A stretch of DNA of 40,272 bases, taken from positions 1 to 40,272 of the forward strand of contig JACQEY010000056.1 of assembly GCA_016200355.1 (NCBI GenBank), written 5' to 3'. The position numbers and the translations under genes were made by a program. The notes beneath the pieces are model-generated. The model did no database searches, was not told where the DNA came from, and saw only the letters and a list, made by a program, of their open reading frames with translations. The stretch comes from Nitrospirota bacterium. Lineage in GTDB: Bacteria; Nitrospirota; Nitrospiria; Nitrospirales; Nitrospiraceae. This document shows positions 6,998 through 29,675 of the stretch, in pieces. Positions within the stretch are counted from its first letter, which is position 1. The number at the start of each line of letters is the position of its first letter.

Positions 6998-8368
6998 ATG
7001 CATCACACAATCACTCGAAACCTGATCGCCATCACAATCCTCGCCTCTCTCGGCGGAGCGGTTGGTGCATCGGCACAGCCGCCGACGCGCTCATCCGAGT
7101 CGCCGCCTCACGGGAGTTTCCTCGGCTTGCAGAACGCCGTCGAAGTGGCGCTGCAGAATCATCCGGCTGTCCAAGAAAGCAACGCCAACTTGAAAGCTTC
7201 CGAGGCGAGAACTCAGCAGACACGCTCGCTCTATTACCCCCAGGTCTCTGCGAACGCCGACACCACCGCCGGGGCGGGGCGTCCCAACCCGCGCTTCCTC
7301 GTCGGCGGCGCTTTGCTTCAGCAGAACCAAAGCATCTTTGCCGCAGGCGTGGTCGCCAACCAGCGCATTTATGATTTCGGGGTGACGAGCAACCTGGTCG
7401 AATCATCGCAACTGGCCGAACGAGCGCAGGGACAGGATGTGAATGCCAGGCGCGCCCTCGTGATCCTGAACGTTCAACGCACCTACTTAAACAGCCTCAA
7501 ACGGCGCAAGCTTGTGCAGATTGCGGAGGAAACCGTTCGCGAACGAGGGCTGATCGCCGGACAAATCGAGGCGCTCTACCGCCAGCAACTCAAATCCAAG
7601 CTGGATTGGAACCTCGTCCGCGTTGAGCTCGTCAACGCGGAGTCCTTCCTGGTCCGAAGCCGCAACGATCTGAAGTCCAGTTATGCGGACATCAACCGGG
7701 CCATGGGGGTAGCGGGGCAAGACGAATACGTGTTGGAAGACCTTGCCATCGACGTCAAGCCGACCCGTCCGTTGGACTCGCTGATCAGCGACAGCTTGTC
7801 CCATCCGGAACTCCAACGTCTGAAGGAACAAACGGCTTCGGCGGAAGCAAAGTTGCGGGCCATGAAGCAACAGTATCTCCCGACAATCTCGGGTATCGCG
7901 AGCGGGGGAACATTCGAACCGTTCGATGCCAGGCAGAATCAGCAGACTGGAGGCTGGTGGACGGCGGGAGCCTTAGTGTCGATGCCGCTCTTCACCGGTT
8001 TTTTGATCGAGAACCAAATCCATGAGGCGAGGGCACAGAAAAACGCCTCGGATGCGGCCACCCTGAACGTCGAGCAGGCTCTCACGCAACAGGTGACCAA
8101 TTCCTATCTGGATACAGTCACCTTCGTGCAGCAGATCAAGTTGGCAGAGGAACAGGTCAAAACGGCGCAAGAATCCTTGCAACTAGCGAAACAACGCTAC
8201 AAGCTCGGCCTTGGCACGGTGGTGGAAGTGACGCAGTCGGAGGTCGCAGTCACAATGGCACAAACCAGGCTGGCCGAAGCGCAATACGATTACAAAATTG
8301 CAGAAGTGACGCTCGCCTATTCAGCGGGAGCACGAAACCAGATGGAGATCGATTCACCGTTACGATAG
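6998..8368 (+). CDS. TolC family outer membrane efflux protein
   Basis: Signal peptide and two OEP repeats (ALQNHPAVQESNANLKASEARTQQ, AKQRYKLGLGTVVEVTQSEVAVTMAQTRLAEAQYDY). Confidence 0.93.
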   Translation: MHHTITRNLIAITILASLGGAVGASAQPPTRSSESPPHGSFLGLQNAVEVALQNHPAVQESNANLKASEARTQQTRSLYYPQVSANADTTAGAGRPNPRFLVGGALLQQNQSIFAAGVVANQRIYDFGVTSNLVESSQLAERAQGQDVNARRALVILNVQRTYLNSLKRRKLVQIAEETVRERGLIAGQIEALYRQQLKSKLDWNLVRVELVNAESFLVRSRNDLKSSYADINRAMGVAGQDEYVLEDLAIDVKPTRPLDSLISDSLSHPELQRLKEQTASAEAKLRAMKQQYLPTISGIASGGTFEPFDARQNQQTGGWWTAGALVSMPLFTGFLIENQIHEARAQKNASDAATLNVEQALTQQVTNSYLDTVTFVQQIKLAEEQVKTAQESLQLAKQRYKLGLGTVVEVTQSEVAVTMAQTRLAEAQYDYKIAEVTLAYSAGARNQMEIDSPLR

Positions 8369-20546: not shown

Positions 20547-20576
20547 TTGGAGAGACTATCACAAACAACGAGAATC

Positions 20577-20650
20577 GGACGCGGTGGACGTCTGGCAGGA
20601 TTGAGGTGGCGTTAAGCCAAGAATAGTTCTCGACACCTTTTTCCTCCTTC
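20577..20650 (+). repeat. C-family repeat copy 4
   Basis: GGACGCGGTGGACGTCTGGCAGGATTGAGGTGGC...AAGAATAGTTCTCGACACCTTTTTCC. Confidence 0.6.
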
Positions 20651-20655
20651 GTCAC

Positions 20656-21462
20656 TTAGTGGGTCCATATCTTTACGGGAGTCGTTTCGAAAGGATAGAC
20701 ATGAATCATCCATCCACCAGCTTGCGGAACGAATCGTCCGCCTGCTTGCTGACACTCTGACTCCGTGGCAATCGTCCCCTTGCCCCCAAATTGTTTCCGG
20801 GTCATGCGGCGTCTACTGCCATCCGGCTGGAAGCAGATATTCACGTGGGCATGCCACTGCGCGACGCTCAACGGAATGCGCTCGTCCAACTGGTCTTCGC
20901 TCATGTCTCTCGGCGCGGTGTACATCGCCCCCTCAAGTTCATAGCCCTCCCCGGATTTCCGATACAGGAGTGCGGTTGGTTCGGCCGGGTCAAAGCGAAC
21001 CTTGGCCAGGAATCGCTGTTGCTTGTTGGCGAAATGATAATGTCGTGGCTTTCGTTCGGGATGCATCGGCACATAACCGTCGTCTATGGCGACTCGATAG
21101 TCCTTGTACTTGTCCAGGGCCTGCCGCAGGGCCTGGACGATGTGATCGGCCCGCCGGGCATCGTCTGCGTTCGCAGTCCGTAATCCCGTCCATCTCATAT
21201 GGGGGCCAAGATGTTTTTTATGAGGGGTCATCATGTCGACCGCGCCATCGGCATGATCATGCTGATCCATCGACGCGTCCTCTCCCTGTGCCGGCTCACT
21301 CCCCTGAGCCGGGAGCCCACCACCCATGAGAGCGACCACACTCACTGACAACGCCAGCACACAGCCCAGAACAAATCTGCGACAGCGCGTTGAATATCGA
21401 ACAGCTTGGTCAGTCATCGTGGCACTCATGGTCATAAGAATTGCCCTCTCGGCATGGCGCAT
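20656..21462 (-). CDS. hypothetical secreted/anchored protein, His/Asp-rich N-terminal region
   Basis: 268 aa ORF with hydrophobic leader; QHDHADGAVDMMTPHKKH; start uncertain. Confidence 0.6.
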   Translation of the reverse strand: MRHAERAILMTMSATMTDQAVRYSTRCRRFVLGCVLALSVSVVALMGGGLPAQGSEPAQGEDASMDQHDHADGAVDMMTPHKKHLGPHMRWTGLRTANADDARRADHIVQALRQALDKYKDYRVAIDDGYVPMHPERKPRHYHFANKQQRFLAKVRFDPAEPTALLYRKSGEGYELEGAMYTAPRDMSEDQLDERIPLSVAQWHAHVNICFQPDGSRRRMTRKQFGGKGTIATESECQQAGGRFVPQAGGWMIHVYPFETTPVKIWTH

Positions 21463-21474
21463 CCCACCTCCGGT

Positions 21475-22401
21475 TTAATCGCATACCTTAAACTTCGACT
21501 GCTGACAGCGCCGCGTCATCTCCTGCGCCTTCACAATCTGCGCGGCCGTCATCTGTGAGGCCGCAAGGTCTCGATTCTTCTCCGCTTCCCTTCCATCAAC
21601 GCCGCCCAACGCCTCAGAGGCAACGCTGTACCACATATACGCGCGAGCGACGTCCTGTGGGACACCCCGCCCCTTGGCATACATCAAACCTAGATTGCTC
21701 TGTGCATTGGCTTGCCCCTGCTCGGCGGCCAGACGAATCCACTTGAACGCTTCCAGATCGTTCTGCGGCACAGCATGCCCCGCGTAATACATGACGCCCA
21801 GATTGCTTTGTGCATGTGCATGTCCCTGGTCAGCCGCCAGACGATACCACTTTGCGGCTTCCTGAGCGTCCTGTGGGATGCCCTGTCCCTTGCCATACAT
21901 CAGTCCCAAATTGAACTGCGCCGATGCGTAGCCCTGTTCCGCCGCTTTGCGGTACCAATAGACGGCTTCTCGAACGTCTTGCGGGACACCCTGTCCCTTG
22001 GCATACATCACACCCAGATTGAACTGCACTGAGGCGTCTCCCTGCTTCGCCGCAAGCCGAAACCATTTCTCGGCTTCCTGAGCGTTCTGCGGGACACCCT
22101 GCCCATTGAAATACAGCATACCCAGATTGAACTGCGCCGACGCGTGTCCCTGTTCTGCCGCCTTTCGATACCACTGCACGGCTTCCGTATCGAACTGAGG
22201 AACGCCCTGCCCCCTCTCATACATCACACCCAAATTGAACTGCGCTCTGGCGTTGCCCTGGTCAGCGAGGGGACGTAAGAGCCGCGCCGCTTTTGTATAG
22301 TCGCCACGATTATACGTCGATTCCGCATCCTCAATGGCATCCGCTACCGCGACTGTCGCACAGGCCACTACCAAGAAGACTGCAAAGAGAAACCGCCGCA
22401 T
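21475..22401 (-). CDS. Sel1-like repeat protein
   Basis: Seven or so 36-aa SLR units (GNARAQFNLGVMYERGQGVPQ...EAVQWYRKAAEQG). Confidence 0.95.
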   Translation of the reverse strand: MRRFLFAVFLVVACATVAVADAIEDAESTYNRGDYTKAARLLRPLADQGNARAQFNLGVMYERGQGVPQFDTEAVQWYRKAAEQGHASAQFNLGMLYFNGQGVPQNAQEAEKWFRLAAKQGDASVQFNLGVMYAKGQGVPQDVREAVYWYRKAAEQGYASAQFNLGLMYGKGQGIPQDAQEAAKWYRLAADQGHAHAQSNLGVMYYAGHAVPQNDLEAFKWIRLAAEQGQANAQSNLGLMYAKGRGVPQDVARAYMWYSVASEALGGVDGREAEKNRDLAASQMTAAQIVKAQEMTRRCQQSKFKVCD

Positions 22402-22537
22402 CGCTCACCTATTTTTCCACTGAGAGACAAGAATCGATCAAAGGCGCTTCCTAGCTAAACGCTGGTTCCTGATAGCTTCAGTCCCGAGACGAACAATGCA
22501 ATGCGAGCCGGCATACGGCTGGCCTGCACCCTCCTTC

Positions 22538-23071
22538 CTACCGTCGGCTCCCACCTTTGACGCGACGAGGGCGAAATGAGGAACTGACTGTCCAGCGGTT
22601 TCGCTTCCAGAGTAAGAGCGCAAGCGCGAGGGTCAACGCGGTTCGAGCCGGAAGCGTCGGTTCAAATGTCATTTCAAACCCCTCTTCGATCCTGCTGTTC
22701 TGAACCTCATTGCCTACACTGTCAGAATCGGGGAGGATCGTTGGAACAGGGCTCGTCTCGGCTTCGACGTAGCGGAGGCAGACATAGATTCGCTTTCCCG
22801 AAGGTGGCAGCGCACAGATAATCACGTCACGTACACAGATCTCGTTACCGGTGGGATCGATCGCAAGACCAGGACTGAGCACCACCCGCTGGCTGCTCCC
22901 TTCCTTCCCGACAGCCACGGACAAACCTGACACAATCCCATCACCAAAGACGAGCTGATTTCTCAGCCGCTGTTTTTCCAAGAAGTAGTTGTGCTCCGCC
23001 GTAAGATCGTCGACGCTCAATATCTTCCCAAAGAAATAGCGAGGCCGAGAAAATACCATTCGACGAACCAT
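22538..23071 (-). CDS. conserved hypothetical protein; 3' end may be degraded
   Basis: SRPRYFFGKILSVDDLTAEHNYFLEKQRLRNQLVFGDGIVSGLSVAVG; low-complexity C-terminus. Confidence 0.6.
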   Translation of the reverse strand: MVRRMVFSRPRYFFGKILSVDDLTAEHNYFLEKQRLRNQLVFGDGIVSGLSVAVGKEGSSQRVVLSPGLAIDPTGNEICVRDVIICALPPSGKRIYVCLRYVEAETSPVPTILPDSDSVGNEVQNSRIEEGFEMTFEPTLPARTALTLALALLLWKRNRWTVSSSFRPRRVKGGSRR

Positions 23072-23198
23072 ACAATATCTTCTTATTATGTGAACGGAGA
23101 AATAGTGACAGGCTACTTTGCGGAAAGCAGTGTGTCAACGGATGGATTGGTAACATGCATGCATTTCAGAAAGCAGGCAGGATCGGCTCGAACACGAC

Positions 23199-23270
23199 TC
23201 AGACGCGGTGGGCGGCTGGCAAGGCTGGGTGGCTGTTCAGACCGTAATGGTTCCTGACACCTTCCTTCCC
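23199..23270 (+). repeat. C-family repeat copy 5
   Basis: CAGACGCGGTGGGCGGCTGGCAAGGCTGGGTGGCTGTTCAGACCGTAATGGTTCCTGACACCTTCC. Confidence 0.65.
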
Positions 23271-23285
23271 CTCCTATTCGATTCT

Positions 23286-23330
23286 CGGACGCGGTGGGCA
23301 GCCGGCTGATCATTCAAAAAAAGATTCCAG
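23286..23330 (+). repeat. C-family partial copy 6
   Basis: CGGACGCGGTGGGCAGCCGGCTGATCATTC. Confidence 0.5.
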
Positions 23331-23407
23331 CCCCCTTTGTTTCGCTCCCGAGTTTCAAATGTCAACGCAACGAAAAGACTGTGGAATCACGTGCAATTCA
23401 GGATGAA

Positions 23408-23475
23408 CGGACGCGATGGACGGCTGGCTTGGCTGAGGCGCTATTCAGAGCGGAATGGTTCCGCATATCTTTCAT
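23408..23475 (+). repeat. C-family repeat copy 7
   Basis: CGGACGCGATGGACGGCTGGCTTGGCTGAGGCGCTATTCAGAGCGGAATGGTTCCGCATATCTTTC. Confidence 0.65.
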
Positions 23476-23545
23476 CTTCACCTGCCCTTGACCATTCTGG
23501 CAGCAAGGCGCAATATTTGGAACCGTTTATTCATCCCCTTAAACG

Positions 23546-24271
23546 ATGGCGCACAAGCACATGACTGAGTTTTACAAGAAACCCACGGATGCAGTAGCAG
23601 TTTTCCGTCAACTTGGGACGAAGCTAAACAGGAATTGTGATCTGGCCCTAGGCACAGAACAAGACCAGCTTCAGAAAGTGGAAGTCAAGGCGCGTGCGTT
23701 CGCTGAAACTGGGCGCATCCTTTCTGGGCTTAATAATTTGACAGCGACACAACACGAATGCACATGCATATTTGATGAAATTTTCGGGGATATCATATGT
23801 TCACTATATTTCGCAGCCTCCGCTCTCGACAAACCTGCCCAAATACTTCTTCGTCGCGTTCTCGAGTTAGGGGTAGCCGCTGTCTACTTGTGGGACCTTC
23901 CACATAAATACTGGGGATGGAAATGCCATGATGAGGACCTCTCATTTAAGGAAATGCTCGGCCATCTTACATCTGATTCGTATCGGACCTATCTTGCGAA
24001 ACTAAATCCGAATTTCACGGACACTCAAATTCTGGATGCAGAACTAGCAAAGACCATATATCGGGATTTGAGCGATATCACTCACGGTAAGTTGGGAACC
24101 TTCGAGTCGGTATCTCCTGATCGCTATAACTTTACTACTGAGGATTGGCAGAAGCATCTGAACTTAGCTAATTCAGTCGAGGATATCCTCCTCAAACTCT
24201 GGAGTAACCGCTTCAAAGAAGTTACAGCTCAGCTACCAATTTCCATGCCTCAACTTTCTCGACTAGCCTAG
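23546..24271 (+). CDS. hypothetical alpha-helical protein, candidate HEPN-like (RDLSDITHGK, R-x6-H)
   Basis: 241 aa; helical character; single R-x6-H motif; 10 nt upstream of the ATPase gene. Confidence 0.7.
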   Translation: MAHKHMTEFYKKPTDAVAVFRQLGTKLNRNCDLALGTEQDQLQKVEVKARAFAETGRILSGLNNLTATQHECTCIFDEIFGDIICSLYFAASALDKPAQILLRRVLELGVAAVYLWDLPHKYWGWKCHDEDLSFKEMLGHLTSDSYRTYLAKLNPNFTDTQILDAELAKTIYRDLSDITHGKLGTFESVSPDRYNFTTEDWQKHLNLANSVEDILLKLWSNRFKEVTAQLPISMPQLSRLA

Positions 24272-24281
24272 GATTTGAATT

Positions 24282-26021
24282 ATGCCCAAAGGCGACCAAG
24301 CTCTCGATCTCCTACAAGCCGCTCGCTGCGAGGATTTGGTTTACTCACAGATAAAGGAACTCTCGGTCTTAGGACCATTCGAAGAAAACATTATTTCAAC
24401 CTTGAAGCAGAGTGGCGCACATTTGCTCGAGGGCGCCCGCGGAGTAGGGAAGTCTATGCTACTTCGCTTGGCTGAAATAGAAATGGATACAGAATTTCAG
24501 AAAATCCGCAAGCTAGCCGTTTACGTAAACTTCAAGACCAGCACTTTGCTGGAAGGCGTAAAGGCAGGCGAGCGTGACGGGTTTCAGGTTTGGGTGAATG
24601 CGAAAATCCTGCAAGCGTTACATGAGAAACTTGTCTTGCTCGATTTGATCGGTCAAGGACAGGAAGCAGATCCGTACCACAAAGTTTTCGGAATTACTTC
24701 GGTTGAAAAAACCAAATCCTTCCTGCAAGAGAAAATCCATCAGCTGCAAAAACTTGCTTTTTCCAAGGACACGGAAGGGGTCCTCAAAGAACTTGGGAGT
24801 GAGTTCTTAGATCGCGTTCTAGACACTGGATTCTTAGTAGAAATCGTCAATGATGTTATCGAACAGTTCAACCTAGAAAAAGTTATTTTTCTCTTCGACG
24901 AAGCAGCGCACACATTTATTCCATCTCAGCAAGAGATTTTCTTTGAAATTTTCAAGCTTCTGCACGGAGGCAAAATCGCTGCCAAGGCTGCGGTTTATCC
25001 ATCAGTTACCTCCTATGGAAGAAATTTTGAAGTTGGGCACGATGCAATCGTTCTCTCAATGGATAGGTTTGAGCCGGGAACTCATGGGAGAGCAGCGAAC
25101 CGACAGCTTTTCAGAAGTATTATTGACAAAAGGATTCCACCGGACAGCTCGCTACGAAAGAAAATATTTTCAAAGGGCGAACTGTTAGATCTCTGCATCG
25201 ACCTCTCGACAGGAAATCCTCGCGCCTTCCTTCATCTCCTTAATCGTGCACTCGATAGTGGGTTTTCAGAAAGAGCAGTAACACTTGCGTCCCAAGATTT
25301 CGTTGACAAAGAACTTCTTCCTTATCACTCTAACTTGGCGAAACGGCTTCCGAAGTATGCGCCCCATGTTCGAATTGGCCTCGAGCTACTTCGAGGTTAC
25401 CTCATACCAGAAATCCGCGCAAAAAATCATCGCCAAACAAAAAGTGGATATCAGTCTGCCTTCTTTACCGTACAAAGAGATATCTCTCCAAATCTCAAGC
25501 TGGCTCTCGACATAATGTGTTACTCAGGAGTGTTGGTAAATAAGGGAACAGTGAAAATCGCTGAACGGCAAACAGGTTTACGCTACATGATTAATCTCGC
25601 CCTCCTCGCAACAGAGAAAGCATTTTCAAGCCCCAAATTAAGTGATGCATTTGGCGCGATAAGTCTTACTGACTACAGGGAGTTTTCGTCGGGTGACCCA
25701 CAGATAGAAACCTATCACAGAGCACTAAAGGACGCTCAAGACCAATGCTCAGAATGCTCTGCACCATTGGGGCCAAATGTGAAATTCTGTGGCGAGTGCG
25801 GAGCCAAAGTTCAGACCACAAAGATTATTGGGGGGCTACTCGAAGAGTCCGTAACGGAACTATCAATAAGCGACAAGCTAAAGAAGCGAATTCAGCCACA
25901 CTTTGCACTCGTTGGGAACGTCGTTCAGGCAACCCGAGAAGAAGTGATGTGCGTTCCATATATTAAAGAGGTGCGATCCCGCATCATAAAGAATGCTGCC
26001 GATGAATTCATATCAGGCTAG
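24282..26021 (+). CDS. P-loop ATPase (ORC/STAND-like) with C-terminal zinc ribbon
   Basis: Walker A EGARGVGKSMLLR, Walker B KVIFLFDEAAHTF, GNPRAFLHLLNRAL, zinc ribbon CSECSAPLGPNVKFCGECGAK. Confidence 0.82.
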   Translation: MPKGDQALDLLQAARCEDLVYSQIKELSVLGPFEENIISTLKQSGAHLLEGARGVGKSMLLRLAEIEMDTEFQKIRKLAVYVNFKTSTLLEGVKAGERDGFQVWVNAKILQALHEKLVLLDLIGQGQEADPYHKVFGITSVEKTKSFLQEKIHQLQKLAFSKDTEGVLKELGSEFLDRVLDTGFLVEIVNDVIEQFNLEKVIFLFDEAAHTFIPSQQEIFFEIFKLLHGGKIAAKAAVYPSVTSYGRNFEVGHDAIVLSMDRFEPGTHGRAANRQLFRSIIDKRIPPDSSLRKKIFSKGELLDLCIDLSTGNPRAFLHLLNRALDSGFSERAVTLASQDFVDKELLPYHSNLAKRLPKYAPHVRIGLELLRGYLIPEIRAKNHRQTKSGYQSAFFTVQRDISPNLKLALDIMCYSGVLVNKGTVKIAERQTGLRYMINLALLATEKAFSSPKLSDAFGAISLTDYREFSSGDPQIETYHRALKDAQDQCSECSAPLGPNVKFCGECGAKVQTTKIIGGLLEESVTELSISDKLKKRIQPHFALVGNVVQATREEVMCVPYIKEVRSRIIKNAADEFISG

Positions 26022-26063
26022 CACGTTCTTACAAATGCTCCATCCAAGCTCACCCATATCCTT

Positions 26064-26168
26064 CCAGGAGGGTAGCCTGATTCGGTCTCCCACTGCGCGT
26101 GTCCAACGAGGGTCTTCCTAGACCGCGCGTTGCACGAGCACAGGAGACCGATCAGGCTACCCTCTCTC
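26064..26168. repeat. mosaic palindromic repeat P3
   Basis: AGGAGGGTAGCCTGATTCGGTCTCC (26066-26090) vs GGAGACCGATCAGGCTACCCTCTCT (26143-26167); core CACTGCGCGTGTCCAACGAGGG...CGCGCGTTGCACGAGCACAGG. Confidence 0.88.
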
Positions 26169-26179
26169 ATCCTCCCAGC

Positions 26180-26406
26180 AGTGACCCAAGCCCGGAGTCT
26201 GTATAATCCGGCACCGGCATCCCGATGGACAGACCGCACGACTCAACCTTGTGAAGACACTGACTTCTCGCCCCTCACAGATCCGCTGGCTCATCCTCGC
26301 CTTGCTGTTTCTCATCAGCGTCATCACCTATATCGACCGCGTCAATATCTCCGTGACCGCGCGGCAGATGATGCCGGCCTACGGGATGACCGATCAAGAG
26401 ATGGGA
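26180..26406 (+). pseudogene. promoter plus 5' fragment of the MFS gene (duplicate of 28330-28556)
   Basis: Colinear at constant 2150-nt offset, no indels, about 15 mismatches over about 225 nt by eye. Confidence 0.93.
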
Positions 26407-26470
26407 CAGGAAAAGGGGGCAGGCGAAGCTAGCCTGGTAGGTTGATTACTAGAGCTGGCTCCAATGTTGG

Positions 26471-26602
26471 CTAGCAGGCTGTTGATAAAGTCCGCCAGCG
26501 GCGTTCTCGCAGCGCTCAGAGGCTCAACGTACGGCAGCGAGTACGATTCGCCTCTTCGCTTGCTGCGGCCTTGCTGGACGGCCTTTCTGAACCGCCTGCT
26601 AG
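26471..26602. repeat. nested palindromic element (E1) at the 3' end of glnA
   Basis: CTAGCAGGCTGTTGATAAAGTCCGCCAGCGGCG...GCTGC vs GCTGCGGCCTTGCTGGACGGCCTTTCTGAACCGCCTGCTAG; inner GAGGC/GCCTC arms. Confidence 0.8.
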
Positions 26603-28038
26603 AACTGGTTCCAGAGCAGTTGGTTTGTGACTTCGTGGTGAAAGAGCACTTCCGAAGCCTTCACCCTTGTCCCGAGCTCTTTAGGCGAACGATCTGCCAC
26701 CAACTGTTTGAAGGTCGCATACTTGTTCTTGCTGTCCTCGCCAAGGATCTCGCCGATAAACTTCGACGATTTAAACAGCGCGATTGCATCGTTAATGTCA
26801 CTCGGAAGGAATCGCACAGGGTCGGGCGTCGTCTCGTCCTTTTCTAGGCGTTCCCCCTCAAAGCCGGTCCTGAGCATCGTGTACAGGACGAGGTAGGGGT
26901 TGGCATCGGGGGCGACTGAACGCAGCTCGATGCGCGCCGTCTTTTCGTTGGCCATCGGAATGCGGATCATAGAACCGCGATCGATCGCCGAGACCTTGAC
27001 CTGGTTCGGTGCTTCAAAATGCGGATCGAGACGCCGATAGGCATTCACCGACGAATTCAGCACGAGACAAATCTCGGACGCATGATTCAGGAGTTTGAGA
27101 ATGAAGTCCCACGCCACCTCGGAAAGACCATCTTTCCCTTTCGCGTCGTAGAAAATATTCTTACCGTTCTTGTTCAAGGAGAAATTGGTGTGCATGCCGG
27201 AACCATTGATTCCAACGAATGGCTTCGGAAGGAACGTAGCCGTATGCCCCATGGATCGAGCCGCTTGGCGACAGATCAGTTTGTACAGCTGCACATGGTC
27301 TGCCGCACGAACCACATCCGCATAGGAAAAGTTCATTTCGAACTGCGAAGGCGCGACCTCTGGATGATCTTTTTCGTTCTTGAAGCCCAGTGCACGCTGT
27401 GCCTCCGCCGACTTATCAATGAACTGGCGAAGCGTGTCCATCGGGAGGGAGTGATAGTACCCGCCCGATGAGATGAGCTTAAACCCGTCCTCGCCGTATC
27501 GTTGCTCGGCGTTCTGCCCATCCACGAGGAAGCCTTCTATTTCGCAGGCCGCATACGCGGTAATACCCTGCTTTTTCTTGAGATTCTCCGTATAGGACTT
27601 CAGCACGCCACGGAAGTCGCTGTGATACGGCGAACGATCAGCGTTTAACACGGAGGCGAAGAAGATCACCTTCCCTGCCCCAAGCACGTCGGCCGGAAAG
27701 TAGCGGATGGACGCCCAGTCAACTTGAAGACGCAGGTCCGACTCATGTTGCGGCGTGAACCCGCGGATGGACGACCCGTCAAATGTAAGATTCCCCAGCG
27801 ATTCCAGCAGGAACTTCTTGTCGTAATCGAGCATGTGAAGGCGGCCTTCAATATCCGAGAAACACAACGTCACGGCCTTGATGTGTTTCTCCTTTTTCAG
27901 CCACGCCGTATATTCCTGCTCCAGGTCTTTTGTGCTGGCCTTCTCGGCGCGCTGCGCCGCCTTGAGATTCATTTCTTCAAGCTCGTCATACGGGATCTCA
28001 AGGAAGGACTTTAGCTCAGCGGATTTCATCTTAGCCAT
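26599..28038 (-). CDS. glnA: glutamine synthetase
   Basis: LTFDGSSIRGF, VAPSQFEMNFSYAD, GINGSGMHTNFSL, NSSVNAYRRLDPHFEAP. Confidence 0.93.
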   Translation of the reverse strand: MAKMKSAELKSFLEIPYDELEEMNLKAAQRAEKASTKDLEQEYTAWLKKEKHIKAVTLCFSDIEGRLHMLDYDKKFLLESLGNLTFDGSSIRGFTPQHESDLRLQVDWASIRYFPADVLGAGKVIFFASVLNADRSPYHSDFRGVLKSYTENLKKKQGITAYAACEIEGFLVDGQNAEQRYGEDGFKLISSGGYYHSLPMDTLRQFIDKSAEAQRALGFKNEKDHPEVAPSQFEMNFSYADVVRAADHVQLYKLICRQAARSMGHTATFLPKPFVGINGSGMHTNFSLNKNGKNIFYDAKGKDGLSEVAWDFILKLLNHASEICLVLNSSVNAYRRLDPHFEAPNQVKVSAIDRGSMIRIPMANEKTARIELRSVAPDANPYLVLYTMLRTGFEGERLEKDETTPDPVRFLPSDINDAIALFKSSKFIGEILGEDSKNKYATFKQLVADRSPKELGTRVKASEVLFHHEVTNQLLWNQF

Positions 28039-28400
28039 GGTTCCTCTTTAATGCGCTCTTGGCGCGAAAGTATAGCCCAGGGCACACAAAACGCGTTCAA
28101 TAGCGTCTGCTTCGTGGGTTGATGATCACCCCTGATCAGAGACCCCCAGGGAAGCGGCTATCAGGTGTGAACTCAGTCTGTCATGTCTCTTGTGGGCGTG
28201 CAAGGGTTTGCGATCACGCGCATCGAGCACACACCGGAAAAGTCTAAGCATCCCGCGTCGGACGCAAAGACCGGGCGTCCCTGCAGCAAGCTACGGACTA
28301 CTTGATGCGGGAGAATAATGTGGGCTTGTAGTGACCCAAGCCGAGAGTCTGTATAATCCGGCACCGACATCCCGATGGACAGACCGCACAACTCAACCTT

Positions 28401-29675
28401 GTGAACACACTGACTTCTCGCCCCTCACGAATTCGCTGGCTCATCCTCGCCTTGCTGTTTCTCATCAGCGTCGTGACCTATATCGACCGCGTCAATATTT
28501 CCGTGACCGCGCGTCAGATGATGCCGGCCTATGGGATGACCGACCAGGAGATGGGCTGGGTCTTCTCGGCCTTCGTCGTCGGCTACGCTCTATTTCAGAT
28601 TCCTGGTGGATGGCTGGCCGATCGCTTGGGAGTCCGAGTGGTGCTCACCGTCGCACTCCTCTGGTGGTCGATCTGTACAGCCTTCACCGCCATGGTGGCT
28701 GCCACGTCGCTCGCGAGCCTCTTCGGGATTGTCGGTGCCCTGATGCTCGTGCGGTTTTCGCTGGGCGTGGGAGAAGCCGTGGCGCTGCCTGCCTTCAATC
28801 GCGCCGTCACCAACTGGTTACCGGCTGATAGGCGAGGCCTCGGCATCGGAATCGCCATCGGGGGCATTGGGTTAGGTTCCGCCATGACTCCGCCCATTGC
28901 CGCATGGGTGATGGTGAACTGGGGATGGCCGACCGTATTCTATCTCGCAAGCCTGCTCGGAATCGGGATGGCACTCCTCTGGTGGCTCCTGTCGCGCAAC
29001 CATCCGCATGAACATCCCTGGGTGAATGCCGGTGAACAAGCCCTGCTCAAGCGTGAGCCAGCCACCACTACAGCCGTGCCCTGGCGAACGTTTAGTCGGA
29101 CCCCCACCATCTGGTGGTTGGTAATCAGCTACAGTTGCCTCGGCTATGTCGCCTATGTCTATCTGTCCTGGTTCTACCTCTATCTCGTGAATGTTCGAGG
29201 ATTCGATATGCTTCGCGGCGGGTTCTATGCCTCGGCTCCATTTATAGCCATGTTGGTCTTTTGTCCCCTGGGAGGCTGGGTGACCGATCGACTTGCGACC
29301 CGCTACGGTCTCACCACCGGACGAGCTGTGGCCGGCATGACTGGCATGGTCCTGGCTGGGTGCACGATTGCGCTGGGTGGTGTCGTGGATTCTCCCTTTC
29401 TGGCGATCACCAGTCTGTCATTCGGCGCAGGCTGGCTCTATTTTGCGGTCGGCGCCTACTGGGCCTCCACGACCGATCTATCTAAAGCCCATGCCGGGAC
29501 GTTGTCAGGGCTCATGAACACCGGCGCCAATATCGGCGGGGCCATCTCACCAACTCTCACGCCATGGCTGGCCAATCAGTGGGGCTGGCCTGTCTCGTTA
29601 GGTGTGGCCGCAGCCGTAGCTATTCTGGGCGGAATCCTTTGGCTTCGCATTCAGCCCGGAGACGGGCTGAAATAA
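28401..29675 (+). CDS. MFS transporter, anion:cation symporter-like (GTG start)
   Basis: 12-TM-like; ISVVTYIDRVNISVTARQMMPAYGMTDQEMGWVFSAFVVGYALFQIPGGWLADRLGVR. Confidence 0.9.
   Translation: MNTLTSRPSRIRWLILALLFLISVVTYIDRVNISVTARQMMPAYGMTDQEMGWVFSAFVVGYALFQIPGGWLADRLGVRVVLTVALLWWSICTAFTAMVAATSLASLFGIVGALMLVRFSLGVGEAVALPAFNRAVTNWLPADRRGLGIGIAIGGIGLGSAMTPPIAAWVMVNWGWPTVFYLASLLGIGMALLWWLLSRNHPHEHPWVNAGEQALLKREPATTTAVPWRTFSRTPTIWWLVISYSCLGYVAYVYLSWFYLYLVNVRGFDMLRGGFYASAPFIAMLVFCPLGGWVTDRLATRYGLTTGRAVAGMTGMVLAGCTIALGGVVDSPFLAITSLSFGAGWLYFAVGAYWASTTDLSKAHAGTLSGLMNTGANIGGAISPTLTPWLANQWGWPVSLGVAAAVAILGGILWLRIQPGDGLK

Follow-up and report, generated by a model that had tools for sequence, protein, structure and literature searches.

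The window, a stretch of 40,272 nucleotides from a Nitrospirota bacterium, carries two adjacent genes that we regard, with a probability of about 0.6, as an undescribed two-gene phage or plasmid defence module that moves horizontally and in which an ATPase sensor would act together with a HEPN-type RNase effector. The two genes are located as follows.

23546-24271, forward strand: gene 1, ATG start, 241 aa, predicted all-helical HEPN-like protein (DUF5677-related), putative effector
24282-26021, forward strand: gene 2, ATG start, 579 aa, ORC/Cdc6-type AAA+ ATPase, putative sensor/switch

A compact gene pair of low GC content

Both reading frames are intact and lie on the same strand with a spacing of 10 nt, as expected from the first-pass annotation, in which the pair was described as a compact two-gene unit of lower GC content than its surroundings. 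The GC content was 44-47% over the two genes (about 45%) versus 53-59% in most flanking windows, and the motifs quoted earlier (RDLSDITHGK, GARGVGKS, VIFLFDEA, GNPRAFLHLLNRAL and CSEC...CGEC) were all found; judged by their conservation among relatives, given below, they go beyond chance. The two genes were compared with those of the nearest relative, a Limisphaerales MAG (L007). Gene 2 shares 78% identity with its counterpart and gene 1 shares 43%; differences at codon positions 1, 2 and 3 amount to 0.23, 0.12 and 0.66 for gene 2 and to 0.45, 0.35 and 0.68 for gene 1. Judged by this comparison both genes are protein-coding. The genome holds a single copy of the pair, and an Rfam scan of positions 22900-26700 gave no matches, indicating that the unit has no known ncRNA component.

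The two genes are consistently paired and co-evolve

Loci encoding the ATPase were collected from plasmids, GTDB species genomes and IMG/VR viral contigs. The GTDB species-genome scan contributed 80 of the 136 confirmed loci and IMG/VR contributed 24; the counts given below refer to the 110 loci listed, including the window. A gene 1 homologue was present immediately upstream of the ATPase in 66/110 loci and a different HEPN-like protein (about 275 aa) downstream of it in 42/110, and the remaining two loci (L043 and L073) were both cut by contig ends. Conserved pairing in other genomes had been set beforehand as one of two points on which the proposal should stand or fall, and it holds, a partner being present in 108/108 informative loci among those listed. 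All partners are encoded on the same strand as the ATPase and most overlap it or sit within 11 nt. The gap between gene 1 and the ATPase was between -86 and +11 nt in 63/66 loci (most commonly -4), the main outliers being L068, where the ATPase reading frame is truncated at its start, and L076. Pairwise identities for gene 1 correlated strongly with those for gene 2 (Mantel r = 0.79; largest value in 500 shuffles 0.15), and the two genes co-evolve. On the ATPase tree the type of partner requires a single change (SH-aLRT 100), compared with 31.8 changes expected from shuffles.

The family was found in at least 11 phyla, one archaeal MAG included. The clade of the ATPase tree to which the window belongs brings together Verrucomicrobiota, Pseudomonadota, Thermodesulfobacteriota, Bacteroidota and Bacillota, which points to horizontal transfer. 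Given that the nearest relative of the window ATPase (78% identical) belongs to Verrucomicrobiota and that a search of 100 host relatives did not recover the pair, horizontal transfer of the pair is evident.

The pair lies within a small insertion

A genome of the same genus (G026) contains the corresponding empty site, which allowed the following features to be placed.

23228-26597, no strand assigned: insertion relative to the empty site of G026; flanks 22995-23227 and 26598-28326 lie about 63 bp apart in L190
26180-26405, forward strand: duplicated 5' fragment of an MFS gene at the right junction of the insertion; 93% copy of 28330-28555, single copy in L190 and L191

Since the flanks are only about 63 bp apart in G026, the cassette is contained within an insertion of about 3.4 kb. 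The right flank begins at the end of the glutamine synthetase gene (26598), and a second genome of the same genus (G028) carries different cargo at the equivalent place, a possible small hotspot for cargo. Beside the glutamine synthetase gene of G028 there is a 350-aa ORF (L191:7561-8613) ending in LYEGRSAAAHRR, in which a HEPN/ApeA-like motif was recognised by eye and for which no Pfam or NCBIfam matches were obtained.

The repeats to the left of the cassette and the MFS fragment to the right of it, both pointed out earlier, were recovered. On the left, a repeat with the core GACGCGGTGGNCGNCTGGC occurs in four copies (20574, 23198, 23284 and 23406) within 20574-23483, and the left breakpoint of the insertion falls inside one of them. 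On the right, the duplicated 226 bp span the start of the MFS gene, with one copy on each side of the glutamine synthetase gene. The right edge of the cassette also contains an imperfect inverted-repeat element at 26060-26165 (AGGGTAGCCTGAT...ATCAGGCTACCCT), which is classed as a dispersed MITE/REP-like repeat; related copies occur at 1554 and 2018 of the window and at 7352-7440 and 2462-2542 of L191.

Such repeats, together with the duplicated MFS fragment, would fit the reading that the genes are chance neighbours or the remnant of a mobile element (an ORC-like replication or transposition gene) that forms no functional unit. However, the unit includes no transposase or integrase, a partner is present in 108/108 informative loci listed and purifying selection is seen at codon positions 1-2. 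The latter two observations contradict chance neighbourhood, and we consider the reading as a whole hardly credible.

Gene 2 encodes an ORC/Cdc6-type ATPase

Gene 2 matched the Pfam ORC-CDC6-like family PF24389 (E 4.2e-9; 36.1 bits versus a cut-off of 27), and its AF2 model (pLDDT 89.7) resembles archaeal Cdc6/Orc1 (Foldseek E 7.8e-7), ORC4, CED-4 and RdrA. A sequence search of gene 2 against the PDB returned no match. The profile match and the model together identify gene 2 as an ORC/Cdc6-type AAA+ ATPase in which Walker A and B are intact. The following features were assigned.

24432-24455, forward strand: Walker A GARGVGKS, residues 51-58; G51, R53, G54, G56 and K57 invariant
24882-24905, forward strand: Walker B VIFLFDEA, residues 201-208; D206 invariant, A208 nearly so
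25212-25223, forward strand: GNPR, residues 311-314, putative sensor-2-like motif; G311, P313 and R314 invariant
25746-25811, forward strand: zinc ribbon, residues 489-510, with the four cysteines of CSEC/CGEC; Pfam Zn_Ribbon_1 E 1.5e-4, just under cut-off
25824-26009, forward strand: C-terminal HhH domain resembling the RNA polymerase alphaCTD, approximately residues 515-576; family profile versus PDB alphaCTD 3gfk, E 7.4e-6

The invariant residues among 76 ATPase sequences are G51, R53, G54, G56, K57, D206, Y239, P240, G311, P313 and R314. With its motifs invariant or nearly so in these relatives and PF24389 above cut-off, the earlier description of gene 2 as an ORC/STAND-type ATPase with Walker A and Walker B motifs was borne out, and we infer that GNPR is sensor-2-like. 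The C-terminal zinc ribbon is real in the window protein, but it is found in just 16/66 gene-1-type ATPases versus 42/42 of the sister type among the loci listed, which makes it an accessory rather than a hallmark of the gene-1 type. The alphaCTD-like match covers the C-terminal 60 residues or so of gene 2 and is preceded by the zinc ribbon in the window protein. The C-terminal domain of the RNA polymerase alpha subunit is a DNA-binding HhH module.

Gene 1 is HEPN-like and related to DUF5677

When searched as a single sequence against Pfam, gene 1 gave DUF5677 alone (E 0.078), at 13.5 bits and hence under the gathering cut-off of 27.1. Matches to DUF5677 (E<0.5) were obtained for 18/48 gene 1 relatives, the best at 3.3e-5, and hhalign of the gene 1 profile against DUF5677 proteins from relatives of the host gave E 3.6e-6. 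Gene 1 and DUF5677 have R-x3-E, the main conserved pair of DUF5677, and Y-x3-S-x3-H in common. Profile comparison thus places gene 1 as a distant relative of DUF5677, its sole significant sequence link. The two motifs are located as follows.

23852-23866, forward strand: R103-x3-E107 in predicted helix 95-117, at the HEPN helix-2 position; invariant in 65/65 homologues
24059-24088, forward strand: Y172-R-x2-S176-x3-H180-G, from the end of predicted helix 165-179 into the loop; Y172 and H180 65/65, S176 62/65, R173 52/65

R103, E107, Y172 and H180 are invariant across the 65 homologues, and D131 (63), G181 (63) and R222 (64) nearly so. The first-pass annotation had taken the helical character and the R-x6-H motif of gene 1 as the HEPN signature. 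The histidine of this motif is the invariant H180, but the arginine, R173, is R in 52/65 homologues (80%), lost in 13/65 and replaced by G in the E. coli orthologue, and has evidently been dispensable in evolution.

The AF2 model of gene 1 (pLDDT 92.7) contains helices at 67-91, 95-117 (with R103 and E107), 165-179 (followed by H180) and 198-222, with inserted short helices at 119-153. In the published account of HEPN proteins, helix 2 carries an acidic residue, helices 2 and 3 are separated by an insert and helix 3 ends in an Rx4-6H motif, and some HEPN families do not have the motif R (PMC3710099). The predicted helix order and motif position of gene 1 agree with this layout, E107 being the acidic residue in helix 2, and to this extent the structure prediction was compatible with the proposal. 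Foldseek of the model against PDB and BFVD, on the other hand, gave nothing at E<0.001 (best HEPN chain 4nqf, E 0.31). Profiles were compared with two HEPN families, and hhalign was significant neither for DUF4145 (E 0.19) nor for the RiboL-PSP-like alternative partner (E 0.24); HEPN models were absent from the Pfam matches of the 48 relatives, and in the PDB the sequence search of gene 1 was empty and the profile search gave nothing relevant. Given that the layout fits well but the profile and fold searches were not significant, gene 1 is called HEPN-like here, and in our judgement it probably belongs to HEPN.

The partner of the sister clade has invariant E73-x-Y-x-R77 and R159-H160-x3-H164 motifs and matches RiboL-PSP-HEPN in 10/29 members (best 4.2e-4, below cut-off). 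That one ATPase lineage is found with either partner suggests that both do the same job, which in turn lends indirect support to gene 1 as a nuclease effector. Gene 1 might instead be a helical adaptor, a regulator or some other DUF5677 enzyme without nuclease activity, with gene 2 as the effector or a DNA-associated regulator. The significant relation (hhalign E 3.6e-6) to DUF5677, whose function is unknown, would be compatible with this, as would the canonical arginine that is not fixed and the HEPN structural match that is not significant. We nevertheless find this doubtful given that the invariant polar residues occupy HEPN active-site positions and that the sister clade substitutes a partner whose RHxxxH motif is of textbook form. 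The odds seem to us even that one ORC/Cdc6-type ATPase lineage drives two interchangeable HEPN-type RNases (DUF5677-like upstream, RiboL-PSP-HEPN-like downstream) in an unnamed, phylum-spanning defence family, DUF5677 then being a new class of HEPN-type effector.

Mobile and defence-related surroundings

The pair was found on prophage-type contigs, on plasmids and in an E. coli integrative island. A partner was present in 24/24 IMG/VR viral contigs, the flanks of which include integrase, portal, terminase small subunit, baseplate, endolysin and CII families; gene 2 was found in no named phage genome and the IMG/VR contigs are the sole viral source. Gene 1 was not found in plasmids by tblastn, but its profile does detect it in a Planktothrix plasmid (L002, NZ_LR882954.1). 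On that plasmid the pair lies between a PAPS-reductase-family gene and genes for a DEAD helicase, a GHKL ATPase and a DUF2779 protein, an arrangement that is possibly a larger, PT-like defence operon. The genes upstream of the ATPase in Okeania (L068; 266 and 239 aa) are sized as in this plasmid.

Among 5,426 complete E. coli genomes the pair occurs in four. In TUM9757, PCP06173 and WWCOL-236 the pair comes last among the cargo of an integrative element near yagU, with a decayed integrase alongside, and in SCU-316 its reading frames are broken. The intact E. coli orthologue pair (WP_061352521.1 and WP_061352522.1) is 39%/53% identical to the window pair, and its existence makes the defence question testable in laboratory strains.

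Carriage on plasmids, prophages and islands is also what would be expected of a toxin-antitoxin-like or plasmid/prophage maintenance unit, in which the ATPase would restrain the gene 1 RNase until element loss or stress freed it and defence would be secondary. The tight coupling of the two genes and the fast evolution of the small partner (43% versus 78% identity to L007) agree with such a role. Typical antitoxins, however, do not resemble this large ATPase, whose Walker motor is conserved and whose tails are predicted to bind nucleic acids, and many copies of the pair stand alone on chromosomes or within restriction-modification operons; we therefore hold a maintenance role to be unlikely.

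Some loci lie within or adjoin restriction-modification operons. In the archaeal Methanophagales MAG (L017) the order is N6/N4-MTase, gene 1, ATPase, BsaWI nuclease and MTase, a type II operon, and in L008 an Eco57I MTase and a helicase-PLD gene lie near the pair. An N6-MTase adjoins the sister-type pair in seven loci (L004-L006, L074, L082, L085 and L086). These neighbours, together with the PAPS reductase near the Planktothrix pair, raise the alternative that the pair is a restriction-modification back-up which monitors DNA-modification status and kills the cell upon restriction failure. In most gene-1-type loci, the window included, the two genes form a bare cassette with no MTase, and we rate this alternative as quite improbable.

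Two side observations concern the same loci. The two genes downstream in a Desulfurellaceae MAG (L043) are sized as in L017, and in L085 and L086 the sister-type pair is accompanied by another, larger ATPase (680 aa with a full PF24389 match in L085, 668 aa in L086) and a third gene, which together may constitute a further module.

For 36 loci, the two genes to either side were compared with control genes of the same contigs, most of them at least 45 kb away, using PADLOC models at E<=1e-10. The flank set matched 277 models and the control set 35, but the models overlap heavily and many neighbours are housekeeping genes, so that these numbers show a direction rather than a measured enrichment. 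The neighbourhood analysis called for earlier supports co-occurrence and is no more than suggestive of defence-island enrichment around the pair.

A model for the function of the pair

The defence model builds on what was observed: the genes and their domains, their obligate pairing and co-evolution, the single replacement of the partner, the horizontal spread and the mobile and defence contexts. Gene 2 would use its winged-helix region, zinc ribbon and alphaCTD-like HhH tail to bind an infection cue made of nucleic acid or nucleoprotein, such as foreign DNA, and would then change state upon ATP binding or hydrolysis. Gene 1 would have a HEPN fold and act as a dimeric, metal-independent HEPN-type RNase that is silent until released or activated by gene 2, presumably through direct contact between the two proteins. 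Once activated it would cleave RNA and thereby halt growth or phage replication, an abortive outcome.

If the defence role is true, the pair is a compact two-gene system that PADLOC and NCBIfam lack and that extends over at least 11 phyla, with E. coli, prophages and an archaeal MAG among its carriers. The widespread DUF5677 family would gain a likely role as nuclease effector, and a single ATPase sensor lineage would be shown to work with two different effectors.

Comparison with known systems

The pair had not been recognised as a named system, and this assessment stands. PADLOC-DB 2.0.0 profiles gave no match at E<=5 for either window protein and in NCBIfam neither the window proteins nor those of E. 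coli were assigned to a family. None of the papers searched, few preprints or subscription articles among them, mentions the E. coli accessions of the pair, the Sll1717 ATPase, or DUF5677 in connection with defence.

For gene 2, the ATPase_Sll1717 family (NF047389) aligns weakly over the ATPase core (26.6 versus a cut-off of 75), and gene 2 differs from this family and PF24389 in having the zinc ribbon, the alphaCTD-like tail and, as an obligate partner, a helical protein. DS-41 (NCBIfam NF053860) is an anti-phage protein named in the DefensePredictor paper (PMC13092281). Gene 2 is weakly similar to it around Walker A (19.2 bits; 27 bits for the E. coli orthologue), and given the equivalog cut-off of 370 bits it is not a member of DS-41.

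For gene 1, DUF5677 (PF18928) has the R-x3-E and Y-x3-S-x3-H motifs in common with a window protein that scores under the Pfam cut-off. HEPN RNases such as DUF4145 and RiboL-PSP-HEPN (PMC3710099) resemble gene 1 in the predicted bundle order, the insert between helices 2 and 3, the acidic residue in helix 2 and the H after helix 3, but gene 1 has R-x3-E instead of E-x3-[KR] and the R of Rx4-6H is not fixed.

At the level of the whole unit, PARIS consists of the AriA ATPase and the AriB TOPRIM nuclease, is found in phage-satellite and island hotspots and requires both genes for phage protection (PMC9122126). It is likewise a two-gene ATPase and nuclease cassette, the nuclease being predicted in our case, but its ATPase class and effector are unrelated and the window pair has no PADLOC AriA/AriB match. 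BREX and BREX-related DUF499 systems contain ORC/Cdc6-STAND ATPases, in part HEPN-fused, together with MTases and helicases (PMC12839542). Their core genes are absent from the unit described here, which consists of an ATPase of about 530-620 aa and one partner. An ATPase combined with a HEPN effector is a layout of a known kind, and this family and its DUF5677 effector appear to be previously undescribed members of it.
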